From NCBI RefSeq assembly GCF_016859285.1, contig NC_053402.1, positions 4,269,031 through 4,333,030 of the forward strand: 64,000 nucleotides of DNA, read 5' to 3'. How positions within the stretch are numbered: position 1 is the stretch's first letter; each line of letters starts with the position of its first letter. This stretch comes from Xiphias gladius. Lineage: Eukaryota > Chordata > Actinopteri > Istiophoriformes > Xiphiidae. The translations under genes were made by a program, and so were the position numbers. This document shows, piece by piece, positions 19,493 through 34,140 of the stretch. Under the pieces are notes generated by a model, which saw only the letters and a program-made list of their open reading frames with translations, was not told where the DNA came from and searched no databases.

Positions 19493-19570
19493 GTAAAGTT
19501 GTAATGTAATCATTGTAAAGTTGTAATGTAATCATTGGGGAAAGTAAAGGTACATTCCCCCAATGATTTT
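19493..19570. repeat. 22-bp tandem duplication plus hairpin
   Basis: GTAAAGTTGTAATGTAATCATT occurs twice in tandem, and the second copy leads into AATCATTGGGG ... CCCCAATGATT, an 11-base inverted pair. Confidence 0.8.
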
Positions 19571-20909
19571 AAATCACTAATAATCCACTAAGATCCACAT
19601 GTATTCTTCCTGACACATAATTGCTATACTGTGCTTGTTTGTAATTAATTATTCCGACCCTTTCTTCTTCCTGTTGCTGACCGTAACACCTGCGGAGGAG
19701 AGGAGGCGCAGGAGATAAGACTGGTGATGAAACTCAAAACACACAGCTACACTTCAAAACTAGAAACTGGTTTTAATTTAAAAATGGTGGCTGGTTAAGA
19801 GTGAAATATTCTACAATCGTCAAATTAATTAACATTAGCAGTTAGCGCTAGCTTGCTTGGGCCATGTGTCAACATTTATCTAGCATTTGTCAGAAAGTAA
19901 CAGATGTTTATTTAAATGTACGTATATTATTTGCGATTTTTAACAAAAGTCTGAGCAAGCATTTGAAGATATTACGAGTGACTGTGATTTAGTGCATGAC
20001 TACATGAAAATAAAAATACCGTTACGTTAGCATGCTTTACCAACAAGACAGGCAACTGAAAACAAGGGGTAATACGGTTAACAGCTCTATAAAAGATAGC
20101 ATGCAAGTATGGTTATGTGGGGTGGGAAAGCTCGAAACTGACTGATTAAATAGCTGACTAGGCATGTTATTGCCAGCATGAGATTGAATTTTGTACAAGA
20201 TATAAGGAAGTTAATGAGTGAACACAGTGAACTCAGTGTTTCTCTGGGCTGTCTGCTTTTGTGCTAAAGATTTGAGCTAATTATCCTAGTGTGCACATCG
20301 CTGACCAAAAAATCAGGACCTTTGGCCTACTAACTGCTAAAAGTTGCTTTCTGCATTGTGAAGGAAGGTCACGCTAGCCTATTTGGTGACTCTAATTAAT
20401 GCTGTCCTTATTCATTAGTCTGACACAACTTTGTAGGTTGCTGTTACTTAGCGGTCATGTGGCAGCGTGTCTCTATGGAGATTCTCAGCTAAGTAAGCAT
20501 ACAGCCTGTACATGCTAGTGCCTGTCATAATGTCTCTCTTTATTGATAGTCACAGCGTGGTTGCGAGACAGTGAGAAAGCAGCATGTGAAAATTTGATGC
20601 TTCAAATATGTTTTGTTCAAAAATGCTGAATGAACTGATTTACCTTAGTCACGGTTCAAATATTGCACTAGTTCACTGGTATGGTTTACTGGTACACCTA
20701 AATAGTACAGATCTATCACTGCTGTTCTTATTACCAGCTATTTTCTTCACCTTTATTACAAATAAAAGTGTAAATTCGTAGTTGATTTGGTCAGTGAATA
20801 ATGTCATGATCAGTGACACTGACCGTTTTTTTTTTTTAATCGGTCAAGATGTCTTAATAAAATATGTTGTATAGTGACTGTAGACATTATCATTGGGCCT
20901 TTGCTGGAG
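19571..20909. other. Upstream region of the SET/recombinase gene
   Basis: No gene recognised. A short G+C-richer patch at 19675-19720 (CACCTGCGGAGGAGAGGAGGCGC, read in two halves) could belong to a promoter or 5' exon of the gene that starts at 20910, but nothing in the sequence proves it. Confidence 0.3.
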
Positions 20910-21026
20910 ATGGCGGCAACAGGGTCCCGGAGGGCCAAGATAAAACCTACGAATGAGGCTCCATATTTTTCATTCCTGTGTAAAGACAAGGATGGTTTTG
21001 TATAATGTACATAAATTCATTCAAAG
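20910..21026 (+). pseudogene. Exon 1 of the SET/recombinase gene
   Basis: The ATG at 20910 opens MAATGSRRAKIKPTNEAPYF followed by SFLCKDKDGF. A one-base deletion near 21000 then shifts the frame; the other frame reads YINSFKG up to the donor CAAAG|GTGAGT at 21026. The KDKDGF...YINSFKG text leads directly into the SET domain of the next exon. I chose this start because it is the first in-frame ATG and sits in a favourable context (GAGATGG). Confidence 0.65.
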
Positions 21027-21103
21027 GTGAGTAACACAGACCTATGTTTAAGTATTGTTTAAATGTTCTCACTTATCCTGTCTGATCATCTGTTCTTTGT
21101 TAG

Positions 21104-21263
21104 GTTGAGGAGTGTTCAGCTGCCGCCACTTTCAAAAAGGAGAATTCCTTTTTGAATATAGAGAAGTCATAACAAAACAAGAATATGAAAGTAGGAAGAG
21201 AGCGTACCATGTAGCGCTTCAATTTTTTATGTTTCAATTTTGTTTCAATGGAAAACAGTTACA
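21104..21263 (+). pseudogene. Exon 2: N-terminal part of SET domain
   Basis: The acceptor TTCTTTGTTAG precedes 21104 and the donor GTATGT follows 21263. The reading is GVFSCRHFQKGEFLFEYREV, then ITKQEYESRKRAYH and FMFQFCFNGKQL, which is the first half of a KMT5A-like SET domain (pattern G-x-G-V-F...F-x-K-G-x-F...E-Y). The codon before GVF is TGA (21106-21108) where Arg (CGA) would give the expected G-R-G-V-F; this is a single CpG transition. One codon after YR also seems missing. Length 160 nt, phase 1 in and phase 2 out. Confidence 0.75.
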
Positions 21264-21489
21264 GTATGTATCTTGCTGTACTTAATTTTGCAACGTCTTG
21301 CTTAAGTTGTAGGTCGCCTAGAGATACAAACTCTGCTTTTTTTTACTCCATACTAGTAAAAGTAGCAGTAATTTTAAATCGATGAGTAATCCATCCAGAA
21401 ACATGATTCTTTGATTTGCATTCACTGCTTGTGTGTTTCAGTCTCTATTAATACACCCTGTAATTAGTATTGAGTTCTTACTGTTTCAG

Positions 21490-21682
21490 GATTGTGACTG
21501 CCAAAGAAGACGGCTCTCTATGGAGACTTGTCAATGATGATCAAGTGACCCTGAAAAGCAAAATGAAAACAATCACAGTGGATGGAAAGCTCCATCTGTG
21601 CTTATTTGCACTAAAGGACATCGGTCCTGGGGAAGAGATCAGATACAACTACAGAGATTCTGACTGGCTGTGGAGAAGCAAG
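21490..21682 (+). pseudogene. Exon 3: C-terminal part of SET domain
   Basis: Acceptor CTGTTTCAG, donor AAG|GTATTT, 193 nt with no stop. It reads AKEDGSLWRLVNDDQV, then HLCLFALKDIGPGEEIRYNY and RDSDWLWRSK. GEEIRYNY matches the C-terminal SET motif (G-E-E-L/I-x-Y-D/N-Y). The usual N-H-S motif, which helps bind S-adenosylmethionine, reads N-D-D here, so methyltransferase activity is doubtful even if the exon were expressed. It joins exon 2 in phase (L-Q-I-V). Confidence 0.8.
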
Positions 21683-22329
21683 GTATTTACAGATGGAACT
21701 TAACTCTCACAAAGACTGAACATTTGGCCCTGACAATCTACTATCTTTTAACGTCATTTTCACAGAGAAATCAAACTTCACTATGTCGAGTGGTTTTGAA
21801 TAAAGTTTCAATTATAGTCAAACTTTTTAAATCATTGTAACATGGAAAAATGCAACTGCTATATCTACTACAAGCTATTCATCCTATTCTAGATGACTGC
21901 TCTTTGTTGTTAAGGAGATGATCTGTGACTAAGTTAAGAGGTGAACATTGTACCTCAATAGTTTTAATATATTTATACACAGGGGACTTCAGGGGAAACC
22001 CAGAACATTAAATGCTTGCTTCATATTTCACATGGGACTCCAGACATAGAACAAAAGTCAAATGGTTGAGTCAGCTGTGTAGCAGAGCATGCACCAGAGA
22101 AGGTAAATGTCTATGAGTTTGTCTCTAACCTGGAAAGCTACAGACTGTGAGAATAAGGAAATGAACTGAAAATGCTACTGAAATGTAGTAACTTATTTCT
22201 TTCTTCCTGAAGTTCAACAAATGTTTTACGTTTACAGGTAGACAAGGCTCAATGTCTGTCATCTCCTCAATTTCTACTGTGCAAAATTAGATGTTTAATT
22301 ATCAAACTTTTTTCTTTGGTCCCCACAGG

Positions 22330-22380
22330 ATTTCAACTGAGACAGATACTAAAATGAGACTGAATGACAACATTTGATTG
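22330..22380 (+). pseudogene. Exon 4: acidic 17-codon exon, copy A
   Basis: Reads ISTETDTKMRLNDNI and then TGA-TTG before the donor GTGTTT. The acceptor reads CACAGG instead of CACAAG in copy B. It is 51 nt, phase 0 on both sides, and is the duplicate of 22745-22795. The stop and altered acceptor suggest copy A is no longer used. Confidence 0.6.
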
Positions 22381-22744
22381 GTGTTTTAATTACCATTGAA
22401 CTTTGGCAAGATGATACAGAATGTCAAAAAACTGTGTAGATTTTTTCTCTATACATTAAAATATAGATACACTGTCCTCACAAAGCCTGGGCCTGAGAGC
22501 TACATACACACTGAGGACTGTGTGTTTGTATTGAGTAGTGTAGATACACTGACCTCACAAAAACCGTACCTGAGAGGTACATATACACTAAGGACTGTGT
22601 GCAGATACTGTTTGGATATCACCTGTATTATCTGCCATTCTCTCAATACATAGTTGTGTTGAGAGACTAAAAGCATCAGCATGTACAGCCTTGGCGTGAA
22701 AAATAACGTTAAGTTATCAAACTTTTTCCTTTGTTCCCCACAAG

Positions 22745-22795
22745 ATTTCAACTGAGACGGATCCTCAACTGAGACTGAATGACAACATTCAACAG
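22745..22795 (+). pseudogene. Exon 5: acidic 17-codon exon, copy B
   Basis: Acceptor CCCCACAAG, donor CAG|GTGACT, 51 nt, phase 0 on both sides. It reads ISTETDPQLRLNDNIQQ without a stop. The upstream intron block (TTATCAAACTTTTTCCTTTG) is shared with copy A, so exon and intron end were duplicated together. Confidence 0.6.
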
Positions 22796-23027
22796 GTGAC
22801 TGAGTTACATTAAAAAAATTACCGTAGACATTTCTCTTATGTTATTTGAGTGCCAAAGTCCAATCTAAATTTTAGGATGGATGGATACTGGAGATTAGAA
22901 ACATTTAATTTATGCTTGCTCACATATTTCTTGTACTGTGGCACAGAAGGGCCCTTAATTGTTCAACATTAAATGCTTGCTTCATATTTCACAGGGGACT
23001 TTTACTTTTTACTTTTTTTCATGAAAG

Positions 23028-23102
23028 CTTTCAACTGAGTCAGATCCTCAACATGCTGATATGGCAATAACAAATGACGTTCTCAATGACAACATAGATC
23101 AG
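23028..23102 (+). pseudogene. Exon 6: acidic 25-codon exon
   Basis: Acceptor ATGAAAG, donor CAG|GTAAAT, 75 nt, phase 0 on both sides. It reads LSTESDPQHADMAITNDVL then NDNIDQ, a relative of exons 4 and 5 with an eight-codon insertion. A worn further relative may lie at 23840-23908 (LLNEPDSAMAMPP). Confidence 0.55.
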
Positions 23103-24164
23103 GTAAATTATTAACGATTATTAAAGTTTGAGGATTAAATAAAATAAAAATTGTAGTATTTCTAACATTAAATACATAACCTTAAATTTAAAAAATCCTA
23201 AGATTTATTAAGAGTTTAACATTTAAAAAATTCACTGATCAACTTTTGATGAAAATATTGCTGAACTCTGATTGGTGCAGAGAAATATGTGAACTTTAAA
23301 CAAGTGAAAAGAGCAGAGACAAAACAAAAATACAGACATTTTACAAGTAAATAGGTGGCTTAGCGAATACAGTGCTGTGTGATACTGAACAATAGAGAGA
23401 GATCAAAAAGTAATTTTAGAGTTGTAGAGAACCCTTAGGCATCTATTTTAAACCAACAATCTAACATTTGGGGTGAGATTGTGCTTTGGAAAATGTAATC
23501 AAAGTTTTTGTCAGTTGACACTCAAACACACACCCACCCTTTATTGTTGTAAAAGCTACGACCCACAAGCTAACAGTCAGTTATTGATGGGCAAATTGAG
23601 TTATCTGAAATATTATAATGTTTTACAGGAGGAGAAATGAGGGGGATTTTGTAATACAAAAACACATAAAACTTATGTTTTTATTTACTTTTTGCATTTT
23701 AGAAAAGATTCCTGAACAGTTAACACAGGGTCACATGATTAAAACTTAAGAGATTTTATTTTTTACTTCACTGTATATGTAAGTATTAAATATGTGTGTA
23801 ACTTCACTTCATTTTGTGTTTTTTGCGGCTTTTAAATGAGCCGGATTCTGCAATGGCCATGCCACCTCTGATGTTTGACTGTCACACAAAAAACATTAAT
23901 GAGTGAAGTTGTTGATAATTTAGTTTCTTTAGTTTACCCATATTAAACTGTCCAGTGAATTTAAAACTTATTTATAGTGGAAAACATAAAGAGAGAGAAA
24001 AAAATGGTTGCAAGGCAGGCTGTAGTTTTTAGATATATGCCAGTTGACTTGTATTTATTTAAAGTATTTCAGAATGTTTGATTGTTTGAATATTTGTATA
24101 GATGTTAGGTTTTTACTGTGTTTGTGGGGAATCAGCAATGTTTTGCCTTCCATGTTGAGGTAAC
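23103..24164. other. Intron of the SET/recombinase gene
   Basis: Contains the possible worn exon relative at 23840-23908 and otherwise nothing recognised. Confidence 0.4.
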
Positions 24165-24369
24165 AGTTTGTGTATTATGTGTTGTGCATCCCCATACATA
24201 CTGCTGGTGTCATATTGTGTATTGTGGGGAATGGGCAGAGGTGTTTTTCTCGCCACATTCAGGTTGGACCACGGTTTGTGTGTTGTATGTTCCCAATAAT
24301 TACTGCCGGTGTCATACTGTGTATTGTGGGGGGTGGGAAGAGGTTCAGTTTTTCTCTCACCACATTCAG
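24165..24369 (+). repeat. Minisatellite, left part (two ~110-bp units)
   Basis: Two units share GTTTGTGTGTTGT...CATACTGTGTATTGTGGGG and CGCCACATTCAGG. The same units continue at 25475-25760, so the array is split by the element at 24370-25474. Confidence 0.8.
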
Positions 24370-25474
24370 AAGCCTGTACTACAAAGCAAGTACAACATAC
24401 CCAGGATATCTTTCTCGTTTTCTGGCTTCAATGAGCCTAACATTGGGCATCCTCCATAACCTGTATCAAGAAGCTGGTTATCAACTGGCTCCATTAAGTC
24501 TGGGTTTTCCTAGTACTTAATATGATGTGAGTAGAAACAGTGCAGTTAAATTCACTTATAGCCACAGACAAAAGTTATATGCAGCAAGGTGAAATGTTAA
24601 CAATATGATCACATAGCTAGAATAGAAAAGAAACACTAGAAAATAATTTCCAGTTAATAAAGTCAGGCTAAGGATATAATGTAAATAAGTAGAGGAACTA
24701 TTATTAACTCTTCCTGAGTATTTTTGTTCTTCTGTCCGATGAACAAACTACAGTATGAATATGTGATACAGATTAAAAAAGATTAAAGTAGTGTCAAACT
24801 GTTTCTACTTCCAAAGGGAGAGGAGAAGGAAAGTAGTTAATGTCTGATGAGGTCAATCTGACTGTCATGTTCATTTATAATCATGGGAAGTATTTAATAG
24901 TGTATGGATAATTTTTCTAATAATCGTCAGAGTCTCTTCATGTTATTTTGAGCTGCACTAATAGAATATGAGAGTAAAATCATCAATACTGTCAGGAATC
25001 CTTTTGGGAATCAAATAATCTTTGTTCAATTAAAATTAAGCTGTAATAGTTATTATGTAGTGACTTAGTGTGAAAATCTCTCCCTCCTTTTATTAGAACA
25101 TCTCTTTTAAAACCAGAGTGGAGACATGGAAAGTCTAAAACAGCAAAACGATTCAACTGGGCTATAAAAATATCTATTGCTCTATAATTATTTTTCATTT
25201 TATTGTAAACCCTTTTGTCCCTGTGAGTATCCTGTAGGAATGGTGACTCTTGTTTTCCAGTGATCTGATTAGTCAGTAGTTGGGTGTTGACAGATTTTGA
25301 TCTTATCCTCTAGAGTTAACCTGCTCCGGAGCAGGTTAGGTGTGCAGCATAAGTTAACATGTAACGTGGCGTTGTGTCCCAATAAGAAGTGAACCACTGT
25401 CGCAACCCTGAAAACCCAGAGTTATACCTGAAGTTACCTTGCTAACCACAAATCCTGCTTCATAGTACAGGCCT
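24370..25474. mobile_element. Harbinger-like non-autonomous element with CAG target duplication
   Basis: The left end AAGCCTGTACTA and the right end, read inverted, AGGCCTGTACTA match at 11 of 12 bases, and the match continues into ...AAGC. CAG flanks both sides (24367-24369 and 25475-25477). Removing the element restores CACATTCAGGTTGGACC, identical to intact minisatellite units. A 3-bp duplication fits PIF/Harbinger, although TWA is the usual target. About 1.1 kb, no transposase seen. It holds a 22-bp perfect palindrome at 25317-25338. Confidence 0.8.
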
Positions 25475-25760
25475 CAGGTTGGACCATGGTTTGTGTGTTG
25501 TACATCCCTGTACTTACTGCTGGTGTCATATTGTGCATTGTGGGGGATGGGGAGGGCTCAGTGTGTCTCTCGCCATGCTCATGTTGGACCATGGTTTGTA
25601 TACGTCCCCATACTTACTGTTGGTGTCATACTGTGTATTGTAGTGGATGGGCAGACGTTCAGTATTGACTTTTGCACATTTAGATTGGATCTCCATTAGT
25701 GTATTATACCTTTAACTGCTGGTGTCATGCTGTGTTCTGTGGGGAATGGACCGGACTGTA
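25475..25760 (+). repeat. Minisatellite, right part (three ~110-bp units)
   Basis: Units repeat GGTTGGACCATGGTTTGT, CTTACTGCTGGTGTCATA and TTGTGCATTGTGGGGGATGG with substitutions. The last unit is the most diverged. Short frames here are chance readings of the repeat. Confidence 0.8.
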
Positions 25761-26125
25761 GGTGTGGGTACAGTTTGTATATTTAAAAAAATTGTCAAAT
25801 GAAATTTATTCAAACGCTTTTGTAAACCATCTAGTTACTTCTAGTTAACCTCTCAACATCTAGTTAGTTTATTTCACTTCAGAATGGATAAGAGTTGGAA
25901 AAAAAGTTTTCATGCATATATTTACTTGTTTAAAAACAATACCAAAGTGAATGCAATACATTTGTGTTTGTTTTTCAAACTAATTTATTTTTGTGATTAT
26001 TTTTCAGTCAGACACTAAAAATTGCATATAAGGAAGAATGTTTAGAATGCATGATTCTTTCTAATCAGTTGAAGTGTAATTTGATATTCATAATATAATA
26101 TCATAACCACTATTTTTGTCAACAG

Positions 26126-26231
26126 AACTGCAACCATGACTTAGTCTCCTCAGTATTATCAAGCTTAGGTAAATGTGCAGGCTGTAGTGGACCCTTTCCT
26201 GCTTTTAGGTGGATCGGTGTGAGATGTAAGG
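26126..26231 (+). pseudogene. Exon: zinc-binding module, first half
   Basis: Acceptor GTCAACAG, donor AAGG|GTGAGT, 106 nt, phase 0 in and phase 1 out, no stop. It reads NCNHDLVSSVLSSLGKCAGC then SGPFPAFRWIGVRCK. It supplies C-x2-C and the first Cys of a second pair, completed by the next exon. Confidence 0.65.
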
Positions 26232-26585
26232 GTGAGTATTTTGTTCTGATAAATAAAAACATTTTCTATAAATGCTTTACCATAAAACTTCAAATTATCA
26301 CAGAGGTCTTTGTTTTTCCATTACATTCAAAGCAGTTTTCTACAAATGTATTTTATTTTAAAGAGGGCAACAACTGCCTCCTGGTATTTATTACTGCCTC
26401 TGAGAGTTGAACTTCACATAGTTATACAACAATTTTTTAAATAATCTGATGATGTTATATTTTTCTAATAAAATGTTCAAAATCTGTCATTTTCGTTTTT
26501 ATGAAACAAATCATTTAATCCTTTAAATGCGTGTAAATGCAAATGCAACATAAATATATTTATGTTCATAACATCCTCTGTCTAG

Positions 26586-26656
26586 TTTGCTCCTGCTTCT
26601 GGCACAAATCCTGTTATGATAAAAATCGAAAGACCAGTCTTGAACCCCTGCTATTG
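26586..26656 (+). pseudogene. Exon: zinc-binding module, second half
   Basis: Acceptor CTGTCTAG, donor TTG|GTAAAT, 71 nt, phase 1 in and phase 0 out. With the split codon it reads VCSCFWHKSCYDKNRKTSL then EPLLL. Joined to the previous exon the pattern is C-x2-C, a 13-residue gap, C-x2-C-x-C-x2-H-x2-C, like a small PHD/treble-clef zinc module that could bind chromatin or DNA. Confidence 0.65.
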
Positions 26657-26699
26657 GTAAATACATTTGTGGAATTATCTTTGAAGTTATGTACCTTTT

Positions 26700-27625
26700 T
26701 GGCTGGACGGCAACGGCAGGGTCAGCCCTATAAACGTGAATGTTGATGACTGCCTGACTGACTGACTGACGAAGTTACACCATCGGTCAACCAAATGCTG
26801 CGTGACTGAGTGATGACATTACACTATTGGTTGGCCGGCCAAGTGTTGGAGATTCCCCATTGGCCATTGCCCTTTCAAAGTGAATTGGCGCAAACAGTTT
26901 CTATTATGTCATCGAGGGAGCATACATGCAGTGTTGCCAACTTGGCGCCTTTGTCGCTAGATTTACAGACTTTTCAGACCACTTTTGCAACATTTCTTCA
27001 ATAAAGCACTTAGCGACAAATCTAGCAATTTTTTGGAAAAACCTTAGCGTCTCATTCAATTGACTGCACATCAGCTGACATAGACATTAATGAGTTTCTA
27101 ACTTTCTTTCTGAGTGATCATTTAACAAGTAAATATAGCTATAATCACAGCACAGCTGTCGTCTTATGTGTAACTTATGTGTCTAGTGATTTTGTCAGAC
27201 GACATTGCGATTGTAAAATCAGGATTTTAGCAGTGCAGACCAGCAGCTTGGAAGTGACTGCTGGTTAACATGTAGTCTTAATGGGCCGTATTTCAGTCAC
27301 TGTTACATACTTCTTCCGTTGTCTGACAACAGAAATAGAAAAACATGTAAATGAAAACAGCTTTATTGGGAATTCGGCTGGATTAAATTGCTATATATGG
27401 ACGCACAGACAGTAGGCGGGAAGCAAACAGATAAAGGGATGAAACTTGTGGACACTAGGCAGAATGCAAATATGACACGATGACATCATTAACATGCTAA
27501 TTAGCACATTATGTCATCTAGCGACATTTAGCAACTTTTCAGGCAGGCTTTAGCTACTTTCCATTGAAAATAGTTACAGCGGTTCACAACAGTTTTCAGC
27601 TGCGTCCTCAATTTCACACATTGGC
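26700..27625 (+). repeat. Dispersed repeat, copy 1 (inside intron)
   Basis: The body includes ACTGACTGACTGACTGACG, GTTGCCAACTTGGCGCC, GTCGCTAGATTTACAGAC, CATTTAGCAACTTTTCAGGC and GCTGCGTCCTCAATTT. The same order occurs in reverse complement at 56190-57120. Non-coding, class unknown. Confidence 0.7.
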
Positions 27626-27710
27626 AATATGAAGTCTAGCCATATTTTAAGTTTTGACCTAGTTTTGTTTTAAGGACAAAATGTATTAATTACTTTTTTT
27701 CCTTTATCAG

Positions 27711-29693
27711 AATTCAGAAGAACAGATTTCAAGTGAGGAATTACTGTCAGATGAGGATTATGTACCTGATTCTTACAGTCACTCAGACAGCTTTTAAAAT
27801 ATGATCACGCTAAACATCTCTCACAAGTTCAAAACATTGAAATGTCCTGCATTGAGTGTACCTCAGGACTTCAAAAAAGCAGACACTGCCAAGAAAGCCT
27901 CACCGCTGAAGAGTCATTGCCTAAAGATGTAGTCAGCACAGCACAGCTTGAAAAGTCCTGTAGGAAAGGCAAGCAAATACAAGTAGTAGAAGTTCACAAT
28001 AAAGTTATGATGTGCTATACTGAAGACATATCTGTTAAGGATAGCACAGGAGCTGGGGAAGATCCATGCATACAGTCTTCTAACATAAACCTCTTCAGTA
28101 AGTAAGAAGAGCTACTGCTACATTTGTGGAAAATCCCAGTCAAAATTTGTGCGTCACTTAAAAAAATCCAATATCCAAACAATATGGATGTGGCTCAGGT
28201 TTTGGCACTGCAAAAGCACCCTGAAGAATGCAAAAAAAATGCTGGACAAACTACGGATCAAAGGGAACTACAAACACAACAGATGTTTTAATGATCAGGA
28301 CTGGATTACTAAAACTTAAAAGAACATCACAGAAGAAGTATGGTCCAAAAGAGTATGTGCATTGTATGTATTGCCAGGCTATGTTTGTCTGGAGAGATCT
28401 GTGGTGACACATTTGAAAATCTCTTTCAAAACGAGTGCAAGGCAATGCAAGGTCAGGAAGAACTAGAGTTTTTTCCGTGGCCCCGATGTCAGAATCAGCA
28501 CTGTGTCAACAGATATCCCAGGGTGTTTGGAAGCTGTTAACTGTGATGAAAGATGGTGACATCTCTGCTGCTGCGTGCAGTGATGTCTGCATTCTTCAGC
28601 TAGCCCAGTCCTTTTTCAATAAACATGGACAGGATCCCACCAAATGTGACTTAATTCGACAGAAGTTCCATGAAGTTGTAAGACTTTTGCTGACAACACG
28701 TAGAGAATTTTTGATACATAACCTTGAGGATGCTGTGAGACCTGCAAAGTTTCATATGGTTATCCAAGCTGTTAAGAATGTGTCAGGGTTTGATGAAGAA
28801 AAGCACCGCTACCAAACTCCAAGCCTTGCTCTTAAGGTGGGCCACTCACTGCAAAAGACATGTGACATCATACACTGCATAGCTCTAATGGCAAAGTGGT
28901 CTGAACTTGTTTCATACACAGCTTTGACCACCTTGAATGAGGGGCACTTTAACAAGCCATCCAACCTTGCTTTCACAGAGGATGTGCAAACATCTTCACC
29001 AGCATCTTGAAAAGATTGCAGGCTTAGCATCAGAGAACCTAAAAAAGATGCCATCTGCACAAGTATATGGGGAACTTTGCAGAGCAGCTCTGGCAAAAAT
29101 AATACTGTTCAACTGAAGACGTGGAGGAGAGGTTGAAAAGTTGCCACTAAAAGACTTCCTAGAGAGGGACAGCTGCCCTGCATAAGGATGTTGCAGTCGG
29201 CCTCACAAAGTTTGAACAAAAACTTCGTGCACATTTCAGTCGGGTGGAAATTAGGGGTAGAAGGGGGCAAAAAGTTGCTGTGCTACTATCACCATACATG
29301 GTTGATGCCTTAACACACCTCATAAGCAGAAGAAAAGAGTGTGGAGTCCCAGAAGAAAACATATTCCTGTTTGCAAGACCCAACAGTTTGACTCCTTACA
29401 GAGGACAAGACTGTCTGAGGATTTATGCAAATGAATGTGGTGTGCAAAACCCTGAACTCCTCAGGTCAACACAGTTATGCAAACATGTTGCAACTTTGTC
29501 ACAGGTTCTGAAGCTAAAAAACCACTAGTTGGACAAAATTGCTTATTTTCTGGGCCACGTTATACGAGTCGACAGAGTATATTACAAGCTTCCAGAGGCT
29601 GCAACCAAGCTGGCCAAAATATCAAAACTACTTCTTGCCATGAGGAAGGGTCCTTTACAAATCCTCAGGGCAAAACACTTGAGGAGGTTGAAG
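27711..29693 (+). pseudogene. Large exon: acidic linker, zinc-finger-like pieces and tyrosine recombinase
   Basis: Acceptor CTTTATCAG, donor GAAG|GTATTG. It opens NSEEQISSEELLSDEDYVPD, then hits TAA at 27796. Further on are a C2H-type piece YCYICGKSQSKFVRHLKK (about 28107) and a second, CMYCQAMFV (about 28360). From 28435 a 191-codon frame is helical and DNA-binding in character (SQQ/QISQGVWKLL, LAQSFFNKHGQDPTK, FDEEKHRYQTPSLALK). The recombinase follows: box I text RRGGEVEKLPLKDFLER (after TGA where Arg is expected), LRSTQLCKHVATLSQ with the second Arg changed to Cys (TGC at 29478), a stop TAG at 29526, then FLGHVIRVDRVYYKLPE with the box II His and nucleophile Tyr region (29556-29585). Frameshifts lie near 28100, 28992 and 29173. 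Confidence 0.75.
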
Positions 29694-29897
29694 GTATTGC
29701 TATTTAAAGTTGTTCTAAATTTTATTTTGTAGGTTAGTGTAAAGGTTTCCAAGTAATCCTAACCTATAGACAATCTTTAACATAACGAATTTAGAACTTT
29801 AATAATGTTCATCAAATGTCAGATTGATCTTTATATGTTAAGTTAACATTTACAATGTTAAACGTATTTGATGCTTAAAACATTCATTTTTTGTTAG

Positions 29898-29942
29898 ATG
29901 ACATAGACTAAGTGCTAAGTGAAGACAGCGAGGCTGGAGAGG
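29898..29942 (+). pseudogene. Tail exon: short acidic
   Basis: Acceptor TTTGTTAG; phase 1. Reads DDID, a stop, then VLSEDSEAGE. The donor is GCATAT (altered from GT). 45 nt keeps phase 1. Confidence 0.5.
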
Positions 29943-30449
29943 CATATCCACTGATACAAAATGGATAATTGCAACTAAATATGCAAACATGAAATTATTT
30001 AAGGCGACATGAGAAGTGTAGCATATGATGCACTCCAAAATAGTAAGATAGTTCAGATATACATGGCTGTTACTAATGCAATATGGTCAATGTACTATAA
30101 AGACATATGGTTAACATATGCCAAGTAAATTTCAAGTGATTACAATGTCTTAATTGCTGATGGGCTGATGTAGATATGCTGCTTACACTTGTCATGACAC
30201 TACCACAAATATAGAACTATGTGAGTTATACCTTGACACCAAAATGCCTCAAAGAAAAGGACCCACCAAATCATTGAAAAAAAAAAAAACATTAGAGCAT
30301 GCAGTTTTAACTGCCCCTCTGTGATGCTGACGACATCCTGCTAGAGATTGAAAGTTATTCCATAAGAGTTTAGAGCAGTATGTGTTTATGAAATGTACGA
30401 ACATATGACACCAAACCATTTATGTTGAGCTATACTATTTATGCTGCAG

Positions 30450-30500
30450 GGCTGAAGACAGCTAGGCAGCCTGTTGAGGAACCTCCAGGCACCTCAGACA
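30450..30500 (+). pseudogene. Tail exon: GLKTARQPVEEPPGTSD
   Basis: Acceptor ATGCTGCAG, donor ACA|GTATGA, 51 nt, phase 1 on both sides, no stop. Confidence 0.5.
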
Positions 30501-30615
30501 GTATGACCATCTATCTCAGTCCACCAACATGTCCACTGTTTGATTCATTACACGTAGTCCAAGGACTACTACTGTTTGTTATGATGTATTTTAAGTTTTA
30601 ATTTTCCATTTTCAG

Positions 30616-30648
30616 ATGTTGACTCTGCCCTAGAAGGTACATCTCAAG
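30616..30648 (+). pseudogene. Tail exon: VDSALEGTSQ
   Basis: Acceptor TTTTCAG, donor CAAG|GTATGA, 33 nt, phase 1 on both sides. Confidence 0.5.
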
Positions 30649-30823
30649 GTATGACATGAATAAAAGGTTATTAACTACCATGCTATTTTTAAAGATATAT
30701 TAATAAACATCAACAACTAATTTTGACACTATGAGTGCCCTTCTGATCATTGTTTTAACAATATTTGTTATGATCCTTGAAGTCTTATGAGATCCCCTTC
30801 TAGATGATTTTATATATCTTCAG

Positions 30824-30844
30824 TCTCTGTAGGATGCTCTGAAG
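30824..30844 (+). pseudogene. Tail micro-exon: SVGCSE
   Basis: Acceptor TATCTTCAG, donor GAAG|GTAATA, only 21 nt, phase 1 on both sides. It is supported mainly by fitting the phase of its neighbours. Confidence 0.35.
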
Positions 30845-30979
30845 GTAATAAAAAACGCAGTTTAGATTGTTTTGGAGATGTAGATTTATAATATAATGTA
30901 AGTGACATAACAGTTGAAATGAAGATTAATATTAACCACAGTGTTAGGATTGACGTGGAATTTTTTTTTCTCTTCGCAG

Positions 30980-31045
30980 CAACTAACAAAAACACTGGTG
31001 GGAAGGACAAAGTGCCAAGCAGAAGGGAACCACATTTACAACCTG
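30980..31045 (+). pseudogene. Tail exon: TNKNTGGKDKVPSRREPHLQ
   Basis: Acceptor TCTTCGCAG after a T-run, donor CCTG|GTAAAA, 66 nt, phase 1 on both sides, basic Lys/Arg-rich text resembling a nuclear localisation segment. No following exon could be found. Confidence 0.5.
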
Positions 31046-32229
31046 GTAAAAACACAAAAACACACAAACAAAGGAGACTCTGCTGCTGAATCCTGTTTTG
31101 AGAGTGGAGACTGAACTCCAGGCAGGCTTAATAGGAGCTGTGTCAACAAAGTTTTGTCCTAGCATGAGGCAGGCCACTGAAATGTCTAAATAATTACTGT
31201 ATAAACATTAATATCACAAAAGTTTGTTATTACGGGTATGATCTCCAATTTGATGGTGACTTCAGATGTCTCCTAGACAGTTACAGGACAATAACCGGAG
31301 GTTACTGAAAAACTCAGTTTAAATGAGGGATAGGGCTGCATGATTCTGAGTAATATGAATATGAATCCATTTTTCTTACTTATCGTTGTTTTTTACGTTC
31401 CATATTGTCATTATGAAGACTAAACAAATCATTTAGTCAATACCGAAATGGGTTAGTCACATCAACCTGCCTGGTTTTTAAAAAAACATCTCAGGAAATA
31501 CTAAACATAAACTGAAACTTTGTCCACTCTCCATTATAACACCTTAAAACAAATGTTTTTCTTTGTCTCTGTATATGTTTTTGAACATTAGTGAGTCTGA
31601 CAGAGAGCTACAGAGCTGCTCAGAATGTAAACTAAACAATACTATCTAATCTAACAGGAAAATTCATACCCAGGCCACTGTAAACCTAGAACATAGCCCC
31701 TTTAAGGCAACAAATTGCTTAAAGATTTTTGGCCAAGAACAATACTAAATCAACCTTTTGATCCTTCAAATAGGAGCGGAGGCATGTTACTATAAACCCC
31801 CAGTGCTGAACAGCCTTTCTGAACAAGAACTTGGAGCAGGAATACACAAGTGTTAACTGACCAGCATAGAAAAATTTGTTGTGTTATCCTGGCACTGCAA
31901 CTCTCGCAAAATACTGCTTGCACACGATATCTTTTGACTCTCGTTGTCTTCTTTGACTTCAAAAAATGTCAACACAAGTGAATGTGACCATTTGTCGGGA
32001 CAAGCACAAATTTTTTGTTCAAACTGGGGTTGAACACTGGCAAATGTATCTTTACATCAGCAAGGAAAATATTTGAAACCACCGATAGACAGTTACAACA
32101 GTCCTGTAATGTTAGTTTAAGCCATTTTCTCACTCATACATGGCCGTTAAAGGAAATAGAATATATATAACAGCCGAATAAAATTTTAGATGACAGATGG
32201 TGTAATGTTATGTTAAATAAAAGCAGCAG
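31046..32229. other. Non-coding stretch with MITE debris
   Basis: GATAGGGCTGCATGATTCTG at 31327 opens a worn MITE fragment. No coding similarity. Confidence 0.4.
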
Positions 32230-32232
32230 TGC

Positions 32233-32490
32233 ATAAATTACTTGTTCCGCCTGTTCACTGCATTTTAAACAAGACGCTCCAGGATGCTTTTGCTTCAAGT
32301 GACCATGTATCGCAGTTGTACTGCTGTGACAAGCCATTTCCAATTTGCAGAGCTTTGGTGTCTGTCTTAAATAGTCCCACACTTTAGATGATCCTATGTG
32401 ATGTTTTGTAGCTGCAGATTGTTTTCTGGGAAATCCATGCTTTGACTGGGTGCAGCCATCTTTGTGACGTGCCATTGTTGTAATCAATCA
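32233..32490 (-). pseudogene. BED-finger fragment of a hAT (ZBED-type) transposase
   Basis: On the minus strand [16 protein letters not shown] and then [20 protein letters not shown] form a BED zinc-finger region: Trp, a Cys pair (spacing partly lost) and H-x-H-type ligands HGHLKQKH. The rest of the transposase is absent. The match to the hAT piece at 5481 is only at family level. Confidence 0.65.
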
Positions 32491-34140
32491 CGTTGGTTAC
32501 GTGGATGCGTTGCCCCAGACTTAACCAACCCTTGTTTAATGTTTCTTGTTTCTCAAGAACCACTTGCTGAAAGATCTCCACAGTGGACACTGCACTTCTG
32601 TGTGTGTATTACACAACCGTTAAGTTTGAAGTTGATTGGATGAGCAGTTGTCGAGAAAATCGAAGGACAGAAAGAAAGACAGACACAGAGATTCCTCCAT
32701 TTATAGTTACATTAATCGCCCTAATTAGAGGTATTCAGATCAACTAGATCCAAATCCAGTGGTTATAGATAGTTATTAAACAAATGTTATTAAACAAATA
32801 TTAAATGTGGCATTTTTGTGATTATCAGTTCTCAGGGTCACAGTGAGCAACTGCCTAGGTTTTTATTGCTGCAGCAGTCTGTGGTAAATAATATTGATGT
32901 ATTTATTATAGTGTGCTGGAAGTGATTGTGTCACTCAAATGGCACCTGTTGTGCTCTGTTTGTTTGCTGCAAGGATTTGATGTCTAAAGTTATTGCTGAT
33001 AGTAATTCATTACGTTCTGCATCACTATAAAAGCATTATAGTACAAAGTTAGTTGTAGGATTTTATTATGAAACTAGAAGTTTCGACAGTGTGATGAAGG
33101 GACAGCTTATCTTAACCAAAAACTGATCAAACATAATCTTATTAAAACAAGGTTTTCACATTTGCTTTTTTGATTGTGTGTTAATATTTTAAAACATTGT
33201 GAGGATGAAGTCTAGTGTTACGTGTCACAAAGTTTGAAAGGAGAGCAAAGAGGGATAATGTTATGTTTCTGTAACTATTAACAGATCATTTAAAAAATAT
33301 TTTGTGTTACCCTGCAAATACAAGAATGAGCCCAGTGAGCTTTATGCAATTGGCATCTTATCAGCACATTAAGTCCAGGGCCATGATTTGCAATATCAGA
33401 ATCACTATTAGGGGACAAAAAGTCTGATATGTGCATCCTTTTACATTTTTTTGAAATTGTAAATTTACTAAGTAATAGAACAAATGTAAAGACAATTTAA
33501 CGTTAACCCCAGTGTTTGGGAATCTTTTGTAGTGTTTTGTAGTGTCTTGAAAATGCTGCTGAAAAGGATGATCCTAGGAGGAAACAAGTAGTGGTCTTCA
33601 AAAGAGGTTGCAGCAGTAATGAGACATTTCAGTAACCACATCGCCAGGGGGGAAACTAGCCACTATGAATGAATGCAAACGATTCAAGACTGCTGAGCAT
33701 CCTGCTTTGGATAATTAACCTATTCAAAACATAAAACTGTTTTTTGTTTGTTTTTTATGTTTATGCGTAGAGGAATTGTTGTAGACCTTTGAAAACTTTT
33801 AAGATGCTTTCAGAAATGTTTATAAGCTATTTTTATATGTTCATAAATGTTTCTTACGGGAAATGCTCATAAGTTCTCCACCTGTTAAGAAGACTTTTAG
33901 TGCCTGTTAGTCTTAATAATTGATTTTTCATTTTGATTTAAAAAATTCTATCAAATCCTGCTACTGTTGTGATGCAACATACAGTGTATATGAGTTTCGT
34001 TTTACTGTAAAAATACACACTAAGCAATAAGCACAAGTATCACTTAATTATAAGTTAAGCAAAACCACTTATTGATTTCATAAGTTATCAGCTTTATGTA
34101 GCCTGCTGCTTCGTATTTGTATTATATATATTATTATATT
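32491..34140. other. Non-coding stretch
   Basis: At 32640-32720 GAGCAGTTGTCGAGAAAATC, GAAAGAAAGACAGACACAG and AGATTCCTCCATTTATAG are a tail typical of a dispersed fish repeat. No gene. Confidence 0.4.

Follow-up and report, generated by a model that had tools for sequence, protein, structure and literature searches.

Architecture of the swordfish SET-YR locus

A stretch of 64,000 nucleotides from swordfish (Xiphias gladius) contig NC_053402.1 (positions 4,269,031 to 4,333,030 of the forward strand), hereafter the window, contained a broken member of a gene family of teleosts in which a SET domain is joined to a tyrosine recombinase (YR). When intact relatives were searched against the window by tblastn, positions 20910–33745 of the plus strand were colinear with intact teleost proteins, the modules following in the order SET (three exons), acidic repeats, zinc module (two exons), acidic stretch, a pair of C2H2-like fingers, YR, tail repeat and a C-terminal Myb-like piece. 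Chance colinearity was excluded because the tblastn E-values of the intact proteins P0005 and P0009 against the window were printed as 0.0. The terms Myb-like, zinc module and C2H2-like are labels given by eye; the only Pfam matches to this zinc module, in P0005, P0043 and P0059, were to C1_1 and fell below threshold. The original prediction had confined the locus to 20910–31045, which was too short at both sides, since the Myb-like piece lay at 33592–33745 and homology to sister copies extended from 19542 to about 33889. The features, all on the plus strand, were as follows.

19542–33889, plus strand: block common to sister copies at the DNA level, introns included (blastn); outer element ends not fixed
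20910–21028, plus strand: SET exon 1 (MAATGSRRAK...), with TAA at 21003–21005 and a change of frame (three-frame reading, tblastn)
about 21104–21261, plus strand: SET exon 2, with TGA at 21106–21108 (three-frame reading, tblastn; start placed by an AG splice site)
21485–21682, plus strand: SET exon 3 (KEDGSLWRLVNDD...GEEIRYNYRDSDW), open (three-frame reading, tblastn)
22043–22108, plus strand: remnant of an acidic repeat exon, holding a stop (weak tblastn match, E 0.31)
22742–22798, plus strand: acidic repeat exon (KISTETDPQLRL...) (tblastn, E 0.001)
26120–26230, plus strand: zinc module, first half (CNHDLVSSV..CAGCSGP) (E 1.6e-11 with P0009)
about 26586–26656, plus strand: zinc module, second half (VCSCFWHKSCYDK) (tblastn; edges placed by splice sites)
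27711–28103, plus strand: acidic stretch (SDEDYVPDS...) that opens the large exon, with stops (three-frame reading, tblastn)
28104–28440, plus strand: two C2H2-like fingers (CYICGKSQSKFVRHLK; VHCMYCQ..), frameshifted, with TGA at 28405 and 28414 (three-frame reading, tblastn)
28441–29700 (end approximate), plus strand: tyrosine recombinase, broken by an 18-codon deletion near 28894, TGA at 29114–29116, TAG at 29526–29528 and frameshifts (reading, tblastn, alignment)
30446–30505, plus strand: tail repeat (GLKTARQPVEEPPGTSD) (E 3.8e-4 with P0005)
33592–33745, plus strand: C-terminal Myb-like piece (WSSKEVAAVMRHF...), frameshifted, with one stop (E 4.6e-10 with P0005)

The window copy is dead and not a working spliced gene. 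Relative to P0003, the exon for the fingers and YR had six frameshifts, four stops (28405, 28414, 29114 and 29526) and the 18-codon deletion, in addition to the TAA with frame change (21003–21005) and the TGA (21106–21108) in the first two SET exons; as aligned, its recombinase had Arg in place of the catalytic Lys and Cys in place of Arg II. The ratio of nonsynonymous to synonymous substitution rates (Ka/Ks) was 0.55 against the copy on swordfish contig C979 (66 codons) and 1.74 against that on C20 (64 codons). Of the spliced gene initially proposed here, the SET exons and the later modules were indeed found in order on one strand, but the stops, frameshifts and deletion do not allow a working gene; the recombinase motifs quoted for it were present as well, but lay in different reading frames.

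Six family proteins searched against the window gave no matches beyond the colinear series, and an Rfam scan of the window yielded nothing at gathering score. In the last intron, an open reading frame (ORF) on the minus strand (32134–32487) resembled a BED finger by eye, with no Pfam match at E 0.01; two minus-strand ORFs of the window were without a Pfam match.

SET and recombinase domains in the teleost proteins

A read-through of the window recombinase gave 181 protein matches at E ≤0.001; in the three protein searches made, the best 120 of 181, of 694 and of 318 matches were listed. The named matches among the best 120 of 181 were all teleost, except for a second label on one record, and many of them, about 950–1400 amino acids (aa) long, also bore Pfam SET. 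Among 133 listed relatives, 68 had at least 950 aa, with SET in 55, SET ahead of YR in 54, the zinc module in 61 and the tail in 51, and SET was present in 1 of the 65 shorter ones, several of which derive from short contigs. Taken as predicted database protein models, these relatives indicate that the SET-YR fusion is real, with both domains in one protein. The same join was found at 7 of the 13 swordfish recombinase loci described below; the placing of SET and YR in one protein by the original prediction was thereby borne out, and the outcome it had named as speaking against a fusion, two parts always found as separate genes, did not occur. No description of a SET-tyrosine-recombinase fusion was found in the open-licence PMC literature, Repbase and most subscription papers being outside the scope of that search.

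Two matters of annotation were seen among these records. The doubly labelled one, P0033, was a tilapia family protein with an additional ferret label in nr, probably through contamination. The intact models P0005, P0011–P0013 and P0022 were filed as isoforms of PAK1 (Parambassis) or NCK2a (Vanacampus), as if SET-recombinase genes lay inside or beside those loci.

The catalytic R, K, R, H and Y were jointly kept in 113 of 120 relatives. Modelling of the recombinase, proposed as a check on the original prediction, supported a YR fold with XerH as the best structural match (model A3), at low confidence near the catalytic His and Tyr. An earlier model, A1 (mean predicted local distance difference test 63), which gave weak matches only, with XerH at the top at E 0.59, was replaced by A3. 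By predicted fold and residues, the family recombinase is predicted to belong to the tyrosine recombinase/topoisomerase IB superfamily. Profile A1 had no match among PDB sequences up to E 1, the PHROGs search gave no named match, P0018 matched the NCBIfam family XerA well below its cut-off (E 0.017), and no relative was confirmed in the viral and prokaryote contigs searched with A1. The Pfam domain DUF3504 was listed neither for family members nor for P0135, P0252 and P0121.

With Pfam SET, the window SET read-through scored 54.5 bits (E 1.7e-14; cut-off 22.4 bits) and P0005 scored 72.6 bits; the solved chain nearest to the latter was KMT5A (E 5.7e-24). KMT5A (SET8) is a histone H4K20 methyltransferase. 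By curated score and nearest solved chain, the SET domain is predicted to be KMT5A-like. An NCBIfam SET effector family matched at 1.7e-6, below that family's own cut-off. In KMT5A residue letters and numbering, which agree with the P0005-KMT5A alignment, R295, N298 and Y336 were kept in 55 of 56 aligned SETs and Y334 in 54. The family differs from KMT5A in that His299 was replaced by Asp (54/56), the Tyr pair of MYYF was replaced, by Phe in 52/56 and by Glu or Asp in 50/56, and the SET is fused to a recombinase. A SET joined to a mobile-element enzyme is also seen in SETMAR, the primate SET-mariner fusion, but the enzyme there is a mariner-type DDE transposase and not a tyrosine recombinase.

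Swordfish copies and branches with altered recombinases

In the swordfish assembly (690.8 Mb, 1298 contigs), a search with P0005 gave 39 matches, 38 of 173 candidates were scored, and the locus counts are lower bounds. At least 13 loci had a recombinase match, located on C24 (two), C19, C1, C3 (the window), C16 (two), C14, C15, C462, C12 (two) and C23; in seven of them (both on C24, those on C1, C3, C14 and C15, and that on C12 at 10.36 Mb) a SET match lay upstream on the same strand. The copy on C20 possessed SET, zinc and tail parts and had no recombinase match, its YR exon being missing. By blastn, C20 aligned in pieces with window 19542–33842 at the DNA level, and C979 and C1226 with the left part of the window to about 23000, introns included in both cases. 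The window branch is low-copy in this genome, and no intact copy of it was seen among the loci found by this lower-bound search. C979 carried two tandem sets of SET exons without a recombinase; C1226 was 99.7–100% identical to C979 and may be its second haplotype.

No element ends are claimed, because the similarity of C20 and C979 extends past 19542, which had at first looked like an end common to three copies, and the right edge, likewise dropped as an end, adjoins an interspersed repeat. This repeat, about 230 bases at window 33892–34119, lies directly 3′ of the homology block (39/43 matches, on many contigs).

In the two SET-YR genes in tandem on C24, the frame surrounding the recombinase was open over 780 and 681 codons. 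In both, Arg I was replaced by Lys and Tyr was kept; C24a further had Lys changed to Arg, Arg II to His and the late His to Gln, and C24b had the late His changed to Arg. Ka/Ks between the two was 0.17 in SET exon 3, 0.56 in SET exon 2 and 0.41 in the finger and recombinase part. In a rapidly built tree, some of whose branches were flagged as long, the pair grouped with Mugil P0121 at 99 in the Shimodaira-Hasegawa-like approximate likelihood ratio test (SH-aLRT), and this group adjoined a Pungitius protein with the recombinase residues kept (SH-aLRT 97); in P0121 both Arg were changed and Lys, late His and Tyr were kept. With open frames, purifying selection and altered recombinase residues, common to more than one species, the C24 pair looks domesticated. 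The genes were located at C24:21310001–21329000. The Mugil model appears to span both members of a tandem pair of this kind, which annotation may thus merge.

The gene on C15, named si:dkey-117m1.4 in several records, also looks domesticated, as judged from its conservation across teleosts and the loss of the catalytic Tyr. Among the best 120 of 318 matches, ranging from Conger, Megalops and Albula to percomorphs, the recombinase part shared 86% to 100% identity in all 120, and Pfam SET was present in 104, as counted from the listing. Arg I, Lys and Arg II are retained in this gene, and Tyr was replaced in all 106 aligned rows of the 120 (14 were not extracted by the anchors). Origin of the C15 gene from the same fusion event as the window family is not shown, because its SET is partial (profile positions 70–104 in P0135 and 11–104 in P0252) and none of the 120 C15-type proteins was matched by the P0005 SET (E 1e-6) or tail (E 1e-5) in blastp; the C12 paralogue matched the tail at E 8.9e-4, and the position of the C15 gene in the tree is unsure. 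The paralogues at C15:16387001–16397000 and C12:10353001–10362000 possessed partial SET, finger, recombinase-like and Myb-like parts. No paper was found under the zebrafish gene name in the open-licence PMC literature.

Mobility, rival explanations and significance

Signs of movement came from other fishes. In Vanacampus, copies on three contigs, distinguished by the lengths of the contigs (P0013, P0017 and P0018), were mutually 97.9% to 99.8% identical in protein sequence, while an additional copy was distant (51% protein identity). Trees of the recombinase placed P0043, from the mormyrid Paramormyrops, among cypriniform and siluriform sequences. The identity of P0043 to Carassius P0055 was 91% for the YR, 83% for the SET and 67% for the acidic linker, compared with 76%, 70% (76 residues aligned) and 34%, respectively, with P0090 of its own genus; two linkers of the conserved host gene, compared between Conger and Plectropomus as the sole host-gene pair, were 51% and 42% identical. 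In approximately unbiased (AU) tests of groups picked after a tree had been seen, a clade of the mormyrids P0043 and P0064 was rejected (p-AU 2.9e-63), as was one of P0009, P0079 and P0086 (p 5.2e-81), and a clade of the Cypriniformes of one group was weakly rejected (p 0.047). Trees discordant with those of the fishes, high identity across orders and near-identical Vanacampus copies suggest a mobile, horizontally moving element, the short distances across orders being a stronger sign of horizontal movement in these sequences than the tree splits.

We read the window, with a probability of about 0.62, as a decayed copy of a teleost SET-YR gene family in which the branch keeping its recombinase residues would be mobile and would have crossed fish lineages, while some branches would serve their hosts. 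Of this reading, the architecture, the conserved recombinase residues of the relatives, the modelled fold and the decayed state of the window copy have been shown. A more specific version, an intron-bearing YR transposon with its own histone methyltransferase, transferred horizontally between distant fish orders and domesticated at least twice (C24-type tandem genes and si:dkey-117m1.4) to yield chromatin factors of the host with SET and recombinase parts, is offered tentatively, at somewhat less than even odds. Several points tell against the preferred reading. The HxxR His position was Thr in 117 of 120 relatives, and model confidence was low (42–65) over residues 541–580, which span Arg II, the catalytic His and the Tyr. 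The choice of the AU-tested groups followed a tree, and old paralogues could explain the splits. At the DNA level, SET-region matches in the swordfish genome were restricted to C3, C979, C1226 and C20, few for a transposon. Neither element ends nor target-site repeats nor an empty site were found, and a YR transposon does not usually have many introns or a length of about 14 kb.

One rival explanation is a plain host multigene family, in which an old SET-YR fusion was spread by gene and segment duplication with many losses, was never mobile after the fusion, and left the window as an ordinary pseudogene. The multi-exon gene, the Ka/Ks values of the C24 pair (0.17, 0.56 and 0.41), the conserved C15 gene and the missing ends all fit; however, retention of the recombinase residues in 113 of 120 relatives, the closeness of P0043 to Carassius rather than to P0090 in every module, clades that cut across fish orders and the near-identical Vanacampus copies on three contigs do not, and we consider this explanation unlikely. 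An ordinary Crypton lineage with a captured SET, perhaps already in Repbase, is rather doubtful too. The predicted recombinase fold agrees with it, as do, according to PMC3212892, the many Crypton copies in medaka and the lack of terminal repeats in animal Cryptons, with which missing ends would fit; but the catalytic set R-H-R-Y given there for Cryptons fails at its His in the SET-YR family, and a DUF3504 match is not listed. An accident of neighbours, a SET fragment adjoining an unrelated recombinase fragment, might have been suspected at the window, where neither part is intact and about 6.4 kb separates the last SET exon from the fingers; with the identical module order in intact colinear proteins and at 7 of 13 swordfish YR loci, it was rejected as scarcely credible. 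Capture of a SET by an element and fusion within a host gene family had been posed as alternatives by the original prediction; each may hold for different branches.

Under the preferred reading, that of a partly mobile SET-YR family, the residue-keeping branch is, or recently was, probably an element mobile at the DNA level. Its recombinase would cut and rejoin DNA through a tyrosine-DNA link, and movement probably proceeded through an excised circle, by analogy with the proposal for Cryptons in PMC3212892. The element may have passed from one fish lineage to another. Its SET would add methyl groups to a histone or some other protein of donor or target chromatin and would thereby help the element to be expressed, targeted or tolerated. 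Other branches would have lost recombinase residues, stayed open and come to serve the host.

As described in PMC3212892, Cryptons resemble this family as animal DNA elements with a tyrosine recombinase, present in fish and with no terminal repeats seen. The SET-YR family is set apart from them by its SET, zinc and Myb-like modules, its many introns and the Thr at the HxxR His. With this Thr, no DUF3504 match listed and no element ends found, Crypton is not given as a firm label, and the Crypton-like membership first suggested is unproven. The same paper names Crypton-derived DUF3504 host genes (KCTD1, KIAA1958, ZMYM2-4, QRICH1 and WOC), to which the C24 pair and si:dkey-117m1.4 are comparable as recombinases without full catalytic residues in conserved host genes; unlike these, they have no DUF3504 match listed and a SET is present, and the C15 gene lost Tyr and keeps both Arg.

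If true, a recombinase with its own chromatin writer would provide a eukaryotic DNA element with a direct route to mark or choose the chromatin on which it acts, and the reason for the capture of chromatin enzymes by mobile elements would become testable, with the two domesticated-looking branches as natural versions bearing altered recombinases.

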